The notes beneath the pieces are model-generated. The model searched no databases and was not told the origin of the DNA. It saw nothing but the letters and a program-made list of their open reading frames with translations. Of a stretch of DNA of 64,000 nt, positions 15,935 through 41,967 are shown piece after piece. Made by a program: the position numbers and the translations under genes. Source of the stretch: a virus. Positions within the stretch are counted from its first letter, which is position 1. Each line of letters starts with the position of its first letter. The stretch is from positions 1 to 64,000 of the IMG/VR virus record IMGVR_UViG_3300035703_000005. One strand, written 5' to 3'.

Positions 15935-16007
15935 AGCCCCCGCTCGGAATCGAACCGAGAATCTTCCGCTTACAAGGCGGATGCAGTAACCGTTATGCTA
16001 CAAGGGC
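15935..16007 (-). tRNA. tRNA-Thr (anticodon TGT)
   Basis: 73 nt. Acceptor GCCCTTG pairs with CGGGGGC (with U-G wobbles), anticodon stem TCCGC/GCGGA with loop CTTGTAA giving TGT, T-arm CTCGG-TTCGATT-CCGAG. No encoded CCA. Reads ACA and other ACN codons, which suits an AT-rich phage. Confidence 0.93.
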
Positions 16008-16020
16008 GTAAAAGATTGGA

Positions 16021-16500
16021 TTATTTCCGATCAAACTGGAAAAGGCCGTGATATGAACCCCAGACTTGTTCATCTGTTTCTGGATTAAATCCTTTATCTA
16101 CAACATTATAATAGTTATTTCCAAGAAAAGCTTCTGTAACTAGATATGTATTTTTTCCAGATTTTTCAATAAAACATTCTTTACATGTATTTTGCCCGTG
16201 AAATTCATCTTTCTCTTCATCGTAAGTAAAGATGACATTACATCCTTCTAGGTAAGGTTGTTCTTCTGTATCCTTATAAGATTTTAGAATAATGTTTCCA
16301 TTTTCTTCGATGACTTCAATAATAGATTGTCTATATGGATTTTGATCCATTATATATTTTTGAGTCACTCTAAATTTATTGTCTGAAATTTTTGTGTGGT
16401 TAACTTCAATTAATGCAAATTCCCTAGGCATATAAAATGCTTGTTTTTGGTTATCAAAATAACCTTCGAAATAAGAAATAAATTTAGATGTAAGGGTCAT
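16021..16500 (-). CDS. cpeT: CpeT-like phycobilin lyase / phycobiliprotein protein
   Basis: 159 aa with the CpeT/CpcT signature layout: FEGYFDNQKQAFYMPREFA near the N-terminus, RQSIIEV and IILKSYK strands, and the cysteine segment CKECFIEKSG about 108-117. CpeT-family proteins attach or chaperone phycoerythrobilin on phycobiliproteins; the phage version is a known auxiliary gene in cyanomyoviruses. Late promoter TATAAATA 21 bases upstream, so it would be made late. Catalytic activity of the phage form is not something the sequence can settle. Confidence 0.82.
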   Translation of the reverse strand: MTLTSKFISYFEGYFDNQKQAFYMPREFALIEVNHTKISDNKFRVTQKYIMDQNPYRQSIIEVIEENGNIILKSYKDTEEQPYLEGCNVIFTYDEEKDEFHGQNTCKECFIEKSGKNTYLVTEAFLGNNYYNVVDKGFNPETDEQVWGSYHGLFQFDRK

Positions 16501-16520
16501 TTTAAAAAATATTTTTGATT

Positions 16521-16528
16521 TATTTATA
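16521..16528 (-). promoter_or_regulatory. late promoter of cpeT
   Basis: An exact TATAAATA on the minus strand, 21 bases ahead of the cpeT ATG at 16500 and directly after the tRNA-Leu 3' end. Confidence 0.65.
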
Positions 16529-16531
16529 CAA

Positions 16532-16616
16532 TAGGAACGGGGAGACTTGAACTCCCACGAGCATAATGCCCAACTGATTTTAAGTCAGGTGCGTCTACCG
16601 ATTCCGCCACGCTCCC
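16532..16616 (-). tRNA. tRNA-Leu (anticodon TAA)
   Basis: 85 nt with a class II long variable arm. 5' GGGAGCG followed by the Leu-type TGGCGGAATCGGTAGACGC; anticodon loop CTTAAAA gives TAA; T-arm GGGAG-TTCAAGT-CTCCC. The terminal pair is G1-U72. No encoded CCA. Reads UUA (and UUG). Confidence 0.92.
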
Positions 16617-16626
16617 ATGTTTTAGG

Positions 16627-16698
16627 TAGGACTGCAGGGAATTGAACCCCGTTCACTCCGTTATAAGCAGAGGGCTTTAACCAATAAGCAACAGTCCC
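16627..16698 (-). tRNA. tRNA-Ile (anticodon TAT)
   Basis: 72 nt. Acceptor GGGACTG pairs with CAGTCCT (G1-U72), anticodon stem CTCTG/CGGAG with loop CTTATAA giving TAT, T-arm CGGGG-TTCAATT-CCCTG. It reads AUA directly, whereas bacteria usually read AUA with a modified CAT tRNA. AUA codons are frequent in this AT-rich genome. Confidence 0.9.
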
Positions 16699-41517: not shown

Positions 41518-41556
41518 GATTATTCATAGTCTTTCACTATTTTACTACAAAAAAAA

Positions 41557-41572
41557 GGAGGTGTAAACCTCC
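41557..41572 (-). terminator. rho-independent terminator
   Basis: A 6-bp stem GGAGGT/ACCTCC with a 4-nt loop, followed on the minus strand by nine T. It ends the riboswitch-controlled mini-gene transcript eight bases after its last stop codon. Confidence 0.82.
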
Positions 41573-41580
41573 CCGAAATA

Positions 41581-41682
41581 TTAAGCAACTTGTGGTTGTT
41601 TTGCCATATTCAGTTGTGCGATTTTAAGAAAATTTTCTTTTTTTACTTTTTGTTTAAGATAGCGAACGAAATACGTATTCAT
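41581..41682 (-). CDS. mini-protein (33 aa), riboswitch operon
   Basis: ATG 41682 overlaps the stop of the 43-aa gene (ATGA) and the frame ends at 41581, eight bases before the terminator stem. Product MNTYFVRYLKQKVKKENFLK... is basic and amphipathic. Coupling, terminator and upstream promoter define a two-gene mini-operon. Unknown function. Confidence 0.6.
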   Translation of the reverse strand: MNTYFVRYLKQKVKKENFLKIAQLNMAKQPQVA

Positions 41683-41810
41683 TTTTGCGCCCCCTTTACA
41701 AACTTAACTCCACGATATGTTTCGTTATGTTGCTGAGGTTGCTGTTGCGCCTGTTGTTGACGGCGAACTTCGGTGTCATATGCGACACCGCGATATACAA
41801 CTTGTGACAT
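41679..41810 (-). CDS. mini-protein with YRGV motifs (DUF4278-like, 43 aa)
   Basis: ATG 41810 with AGGAG in front. MSQVVYRGVAYDTEVRRQQQ, a Gln-rich linker, then a second YRGVKF near the end. The YRG(V)xY motif is the mark of small cyanobacterial proteins of the DUF4278 type, which also occur behind nitrogen-responsive RNAs. It lies directly downstream of two tandem riboswitch-like elements, so its translation or transcription is probably set by the cell's glutamine level (inference). Confidence 0.7.
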   Translation of the reverse strand: MSQVVYRGVAYDTEVRRQQQAQQQPQQHNETYRGVKFVKGAQK

Positions 41811-41841
41811 TAGGTTTCTCCTTAATGGTTTAGGTTAAAGA

Positions 41842-41883
41842 GCGTTCCTTCAGTCGGCTTTTGCGTCCCATTGGGGATGAACG
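41842..41883 (-). ncRNA. glutamine-riboswitch/downstream-peptide type RNA, copy 2
   Basis: Read on the minus strand: CGTTCATC, a small hairpin CCC-AAT-GGG, GACGCAAAAGCCGACT, then GAAGGAACGC. The outer CGTTC/GAACG stem closes a three-way junction. This order of conserved bits is that of the glnA (glutamine) and downstream-peptide RNA motifs of cyanobacteria, as I remember them. 31 bases ahead of the 43-aa gene. Confidence 0.75.
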
Positions 41884-41885
41884 AT

Positions 41886-41927
41886 CCGTTCCGAGTCGGC
41901 TTACTTCCGTCGCATTAGCGATGAACG
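41886..41927 (-). ncRNA. glutamine-riboswitch type RNA, copy 1
   Basis: Minus strand: CGTTCATC, hairpin TCGC-TAAT-GCGA, GACGGAAGTAAGCCGACT, CGGAACGG. Same closing stem as copy 2 but with the GACGGAAGTA core nearer to the glnA RNA consensus. The two copies are directly adjacent (two bases apart), giving a tandem aptamer that starts about 10 bases after the -10 box. Confidence 0.75.
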
Positions 41928-41937
41928 TTAGAGGATT

Positions 41938-41967
41938 ATTATACCTCCATTCATCCTATATAGTCAA
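41938..41967 (-). promoter_or_regulatory. early (sigma70-type) promoter of the riboswitch operon
   Basis: TTGACT (41962-41967), 18-nt spacer, TATAAT (41938-41943). The transcript would begin just before the first riboswitch copy. Confidence 0.82.

Follow-up and report, generated by a model that had tools for sequence, protein, structure and literature searches.

A leader RNA in the virus record IMGVR_UViG_3300035703_000005 (IMG/VR) appears, from its sequence, to be a single RNA, with a second sensor core lying inside a loop of the first, rather than two sensors side by side; it is probably best explained overall as a nested double-core glutamine-I type riboswitch RNA, which we infer to be ON with glutamine. 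The nested layout recurs across many cyanophages, and is almost absent from the bacterial genomes searched. Cyanophage glnA elements (PMC9964418) and tandem glnA RNAs (PMC2864571) were already known. The element is a nested phage form of the glutamine-I riboswitch (RF01739), apparently undescribed: in the open literature we found no description of a nested or shared-P3 layout, and no account of near restriction to phages, the phage YRG link or the loop ORFs, although priority is not certain.

Layout of the element in the window

The stretch analysed, here called the window, comprises 64,000 nucleotides (positions 1 to 64,000 of the record). The initial annotation had described a sigma70-type promoter, two adjacent glnA-like copies, a 43-aa YRG ORF with a coupled 33-aa ORF, and a terminator; all are found, on the minus strand (Table 1). 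The rest of the window's virus record (248,835 bases) held no further RF01739 match. Among annotated phages, the best DNA match to the window is Synechococcus phage S-SRM01, in which the YRG gene is likewise followed by an ORF equal in length to the window's 33-aa one; downstream in that phage, the YRG gene and small genes are succeeded by thymidylate synthase and then by a phosphate-starvation gene. Elsewhere in the window, three tRNA genes are clustered at 15935-16698 (-).

Table 1. Features of the locus, with the helices and cores assigned under the putative nested structure
Feature	Position	Strand	Basis or remark
Sigma70-type promoter, TTGACT-18-TATAAT	41938..41967	-	11/12 consensus bases; 10 nt from -10 end to P1
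glnA-like copy 1	41929-41887	-	RF01739, 26.2 bits, below the 35-bit gathering cut-off
glnA-like copy 2	41885-41839	-	RF01739, 38.6 bits, above the 35-bit gathering cut-off
Putative nested double-core glutamine RNA, whole (85 nt)	41843..41927	-
Outer P1, 5' strand CGUUC	41923..41927	-	Partner 41843-41847; P1 strand table
P2a hairpin, outer core	41910..41921	-	May enclose an ORF in relatives
Outer core CGGAAGUA, including loop E 5' strand	41902..41909	-	RF01739 consensus match
P3 5' strand AGCCGACU (copy 1)	41894..41901	-	Covaries with 41852-41859
Inner P1' hairpin GAACG-GAU-CGUUC	41879..41891	-	RNAalifold, P1 strand table, mispair scans
P2b hairpin, inner core	41866..41877	-	May enclose an ORF in relatives
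Inner core CGCAA	41861..41865	-	3' half conserved at junction loci
P3 3' strand AGCCGACU (copy 2)	41852..41859	-	Covaries with the copy 1 strand
GAAG, loop E 3' strand	41848..41851	-	RF01739 alignment
Outer P1, 3' strand GAACG	41843..41847	-	P1 strand table
Hairpin CUCUUUAA/UUAAGGAG over Shine-Dalgarno AAGGAG; candidate expression platform	41818..41842	-	Minimum-energy fold
43-aa YRG protein, DUF4278-like, PHROG 5049	41679..41810	-
33-aa protein	41581..41682	-	Start overlaps the YRG gene stop via ATGA
Intrinsic terminator	41555..41574	-

The proposed membership of the glutamine (glnA) riboswitch family stands, with copy 2 alone reaching the RF01739 gathering score. The Rfam scan gave no such match to the other family suggested, the downstream-peptide RNA (glutamine-II, RF01704), which scored 18.2 bits against a 33-bit cut-off and is rejected; it has the CGUUCA, CGCA and GGAACG pieces in common with glutamine-I, and small DUF4278 proteins lie downstream of it in picocyanobacteria (PMC6316151), but it is a pseudoknot without P3.

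The cores of the two copies do differ, as had been noted (GACGGAAGTA against GACGCAAAAG), and the copies are complementary halves. Loop E is built from the strands AGUA and GAA, and each copy lacks one: against the Rfam model, copy 1 aligns with CGGAAGUA and lacks GAAG ahead of its GAACG, and copy 2 aligns with GAAG and lacks GUA. Because the copies miss opposite strands, together they make one full consensus. Neither copy by itself supplies the full P1/P2/P3 junction with loop E in the RF01739 alignment, which is provided by the 5' half of copy 1 and the 3' half of copy 2; a P1 and P3 closed within each copy, as in independent tandem aptamers, were not found. The outer core would thus be a complete glnA aptamer, comprising P1 (first and last strands), P2a, the AGUA/GAA loop E and P3, with P3 apparently bearing a circularly permuted inner core (P1', P2b and CGCAA) instead of a small apical loop. 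The pocket contacts known from glutamine-I, C1:G59, G2:C58 and G22 (PMC6698751), are present by sequence in both cores, G22 being the G of GACG by our own assignment, via alignment to glutamine-II G18.

The phage form accordingly has all the core motifs of RF01739, its P1/P2/P3 and loop E, and a DUF4278-type downstream gene, but differs in that P3 joins two copies and carries a permuted second core, and in that the P2 loops can hold ORFs. It resembles the tandem glnA RNAs (Weinberg 2010, PMC2864571) in having two motif copies in one leader, but its copies are interdependent halves and not self-contained aptamers. Thermodynamic folding does not separate the two arrangements: the window P3 has two A-C mismatches (6/8 pairs formed), by nearest-neighbour energy the local tandem fold comes out slightly ahead there (-27.3 against -25.2 kcal/mol), and across 30 elements nested and tandem energies are nearly equal.

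Comparative evidence and distribution

Pattern scans of viral contigs yielded at least several hundred loci, with ORF-bearing elements parsed by pattern because their long loops give poor covariance-model scores. A nested-element model scored 100.3 bits on the window, itself a training sequence, and 82-96 bits on S-PM2, P-TIM68, Bellamy and S-CREM1, none of them in the training set; since these untrained phages score so well, the element is not a chance match. The S-CREM1 element had been annotated as one 99-nt glnA match of 44.0 bits (PMC9964418); it is the same element, reaching 82.2 bits with the nested model (L212), but the accessible part of that report presents it as an ordinary glnA element, without nested structure or YRG link.

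Covariation in P3 supports pairing between the copies. The matches listed contain 37 distinct combinations of strands in which the variable stretches of the two copies pair with each other, among them AGUCG/CGACU, AGUCA/UGACU, AGUCU/AGACU, AGCCAACU/AGUUGACU and GGUUAACG/CGUUAAUU; distinct P3 types in these matches had a mean helix score of 5.08, against 3.77 (sd 0.14) for permuted partners (0/2000). Across 32 ORF-less elements, 95.1% of cells pair in the nested structure and six of the eight nested P3 pairs show changes on both sides, compared with none of the local P3 pairs; the observed cells-paired or covariation values were matched in 0/500 shuffles. RNAalifold, unprompted, returned the outer P1 and the inner P1' hairpin.

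The P1 strands point the same way. Among the matches listed, 339 parsed elements carried their four P1 strands as CGUUC/GAACG/CGUUC/GAACG (257), CGUUC/CAACG/CGUUG/GAACG (73) or CGUUU/CAACG/CGUUG/AAACG (9); in the 82 listed elements in which inner and outer P1 differ (73 + 9), pairing is possible only between first and fourth and between second and third strands. Most of these variants came from a scan that required the inner CAACG...CGUUG pair and left the outer strands free; that the free strands were still of the nested type speaks for nesting, since local pairing would have changed the outer strands too. The P1 changes may nevertheless trace to few ancestral events. Scans for mispaired inner strands, run to completion, gave 0 and 4 matches, the 4 being chance by sequence and without a score with the nested model. 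The linker between the inner strands, for which the scan patterns set a maximum length, is 3-6 nt (3 nt in 207/277 of the matches listed) and in these matches never falls below 3 nt, though the pattern allowed it, as a hairpin loop needs. The 3' half of the inner core was present at 242 of 246 junction loci among the matches listed, compared with 0/400 shuffled controls, and GAAG or AAAG at 242/242.

The initial annotation had read the locus as a pair of independent aptamers in tandem, with a separate P1 and P3 for each copy, that would respond steeply to glutamine and perhaps differ in affinity. One motif is indeed repeated twice, local-fold energies are similar to those of the nested fold, and tandem glnA RNAs are on record (PMC2864571); but each copy lacks one loop E strand, the P1 strand classes among the matches listed are compatible with nesting only, no local hairpin exists for short P3 types like AGUCG, and the mispaired-strand scans returned nothing beyond chance. 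We give this reading hardly any credence, as the compensatory changes in P1 and P3 make the copies a single nested RNA, which leaves neither the steep tandem response nor the difference in affinity between two aptamers. Complete tandems do exist on phage contigs and score accordingly (58.4 and 61.6 bits in L353), which argues that the window type is something else. A pseudoknot with local P1 helices and an inter-copy P3 was also rejected, as P3 fits but the P1 strand table does not.

At each of two such loci, L334:2345-2449 (-) and L353:4963-5067 (+), a protein with three YRG motifs is preceded by a true tandem of complete glutamine-I aptamers, unlike the nested form.

As far as searched, the nested form is nearly restricted to phages. 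A strict pattern run over 84,980 genomes of bacteria and archaea matched 7 stretches, one of them chance (L369) and six apparently real; two of the six belong to contigs as large as a cyanomyovirus genome (188,235 and 189,106 bases, the latter matching a viral record in length), and these are probably phage contigs within the assemblies. With stricter filters, the nested-element model matched 2 of 300 picocyanobacterial-family genomes, one on the 189-kb contig and one as a 49-nt, 40.8-bit match of single-aptamer size. RF01739 itself occurs in 41 of 121 host cyanobacterial genomes; the host elements examined mostly have a CGUUG/CAACG P1 with a P3 of their own, and as far as searched the host cyanobacteria have ordinary single forms and not the nested one. 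A general pattern found 60 nested, 25 single and 2 unclear elements at 87 phage loci. Several of the single phage aptamers also precede YRG genes, so that nested and single forms can replace each other. Among cultured phages, S-PM2, S-CREM1, Bellamy and P-TIM68 carry the short-loop element, and S-SRM01, P-SSM2, P-SSM4, P-SSM7, P-HM1, S-SSM7, P-RSM6, DSL-LC02 and DSL-LC03 one with an ORF in P2b.

Three further observations concern individual contigs. A cyanophage-type nested element lies at L370:7818-7847 on NZ_RMVE01000006.1 (188,235 bases, filed as Nonlabens xiamenensis), a contig whose length suggests a phage genome within that assembly. One phage contig combines a PhotoRC-II RNA (L135:8471-8565, 80.1 bits) with a YRG gene preceded by a single canonical glutamine aptamer (L135:4448-4494, 53.6 bits). 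On the viral contigs L139, L142, L156 and L202, single glutamine aptamers precede non-YRG proteins (e.g. MDILLELAANFWQWSVLIVLVLIG..., MADMDRFQGDMSRNEVELD...).

Loop reading frames and the downstream YRG protein

The P2a or P2b loop of many relatives is occupied by an ORF some 50-75 codons long; we extracted at least 67 P2a and at least 124 P2b ORFs, the window element having neither. Among the matches listed, nearly all begin with an ATG 3-5 nt beyond CGUUCA, and 118/124 P2b ORFs have their stop 12 or 15 nt beyond the point where GACG begins, a position that makes the last codons (DAND or DAKAD) part of the aptamer core and P3 strand. Differences between the listed ORFs fall by codon position 3/1/2 as 2760/1798/1070 for P2a and 10699/6734/3203 for P2b, a bias (3>1>2) that we read as the mark of translated genes in both loops. 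Of 117 distinct P2b products among the matches listed, 115 retain two cysteines, and the one product modelled was predicted to form two helices (mean pLDDT 83.5). The nested-ORF proteins fit PHROGs 6471, 504 and 13397; eight searched against Pfam matched no family at E < 0.09, and a weak search with two queries found no homologues elsewhere in the window's genome. Hypothetical genes of S-SRM01 (L210:2557-2724) and P-SSM4 (L420:1300-1500 and 1540-1713) lie inside riboswitch P2 loops, those of P-SSM4 being annotated as T4-GC 429 and 430. In at least 55 elements (e.g. L203, L204, L211) P2b is filled by a palindrome, TTCGCTATT...AATAGCGAA, possibly a mobile hairpin, which is absent from the window's genome.

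The suggested link to phage mini-proteins is borne out: among the matches listed, a YRG protein lies downstream of 178 of 180 elements, and of 80 of 82 in the CAACG class. The window YRG protein scored 21.3 bits against DUF4278 (PF14105; E=3.6e-4), under the 25.3-bit Pfam cut-off; 26 of 30 diverse YRG relatives match at E<=0.01 (best 1.7e-7), and by sequence the window protein appears related to DUF4278 though below the cut-off. No relative of the YRG family was found in the PDB. DUF4278 genes are the main downstream genes of host glutamine riboswitches, and the same domain forms the N-terminus of IF17, an inhibitor of glutamine synthetase that can inhibit without it (PMC6316151). In Synechocystis, the gifB/IF17 riboswitch is a comparable case of a glutamine aptamer controlling a DUF4278 nitrogen-assimilation regulator (Klahn 2018, as covered in PMC6316151); the host protein there is full IF17, however, and the phage protein spans roughly the DUF4278 part only.

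Proposed switching and its meaning

Glutamine binding, ligand number and switching direction are what we infer for the nested RNA. Glutamine would bind the outer core, and probably the inner core too, and would stabilise the two P1 helices together with the P3 that the cores share; the stabilised fold would alter ribosome-binding-site access of the DUF4278-like YRG gene. The phage would thereby couple an early small protein, whose target is probably nitrogen metabolism, to the host glutamine level. A ligand other than glutamine, or a role as a processing or protein-binding site, seems improbable: the pocket bases are invariant in both cores, RF01739 matches above cut-off, and a DUF4278-type gene lies downstream as in hosts. 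A more serious alternative, to which we give weight somewhat short of even, is a nested RNA in which the outer core alone binds glutamine and the inner core is a structural cap. Loop E is confined to the outer core, and the same kind of YRG gene follows single canonical aptamers in other phages; the inner core, however, retains C1:G59, G2:C58 and the G of GACG, its 3' half is conserved among the matches listed as described above, and the glutamine-II pocket functions without loop E (PMC6698751).

Among the matches listed, 195 of 283 relatives have a -10 box (5/6 or better) at a distance of 7-10 nt from P1 on its 5' side, which puts the sensor at the very start of the RNA. Translation is the most likely level of control, as about 30 nt separate the element from the start codon and a hairpin in the window covers the Shine-Dalgarno sequence. 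With modest confidence, and by analogy with the tested type I and II glutamine riboswitches, both ON with glutamine (PMC6316151), we suggest that the switch is ON. We consider it unlikely that the nested RNA is instead an OFF switch, in which glutamine-stabilised P1 would stack on the Shine-Dalgarno hairpin and hold it closed: the window hairpin, which starts right after P1, would fit such a switch equally well, and the accessibility predicted there is 0.01 with the nested fold or without it, energy modelling with that fold enforced giving no clear change; but the tested riboswitches are ON, and the hairpin was not seen in marine leaders and is not general among relatives.

In ORF-bearing relatives the P2b ORF crosses the inner core and P3, so nested-ORF translation and aptamer folding are expected to be mutually exclusive, and glutamine would favour the YRG protein over the nested one. 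The nested RNA may then be, tentatively and on balance somewhat doubtfully, a phage-evolved two-pocket riboswitch, serving many phages as a translatable sensor, in which ribosome passage against glutamine binding selects the nested two-cysteine protein or YRG.

If the nested reading is true, many of the elements counted as "tandem glnA aptamers" in marine data could each be one nested RNA, and phages have remodelled a nitrogen sensor of their hosts into a layout not found in those hosts. The element would be a natural example of an aptamer core within an aptamer core, and of protein-coding ORFs running through a ligand-binding RNA core. Cyanophage reading of host nitrogen status becomes testable, as the cultured phages S-PM2, P-SSM4, P-HM1, S-SSM7 and S-SRM01 carry the element.
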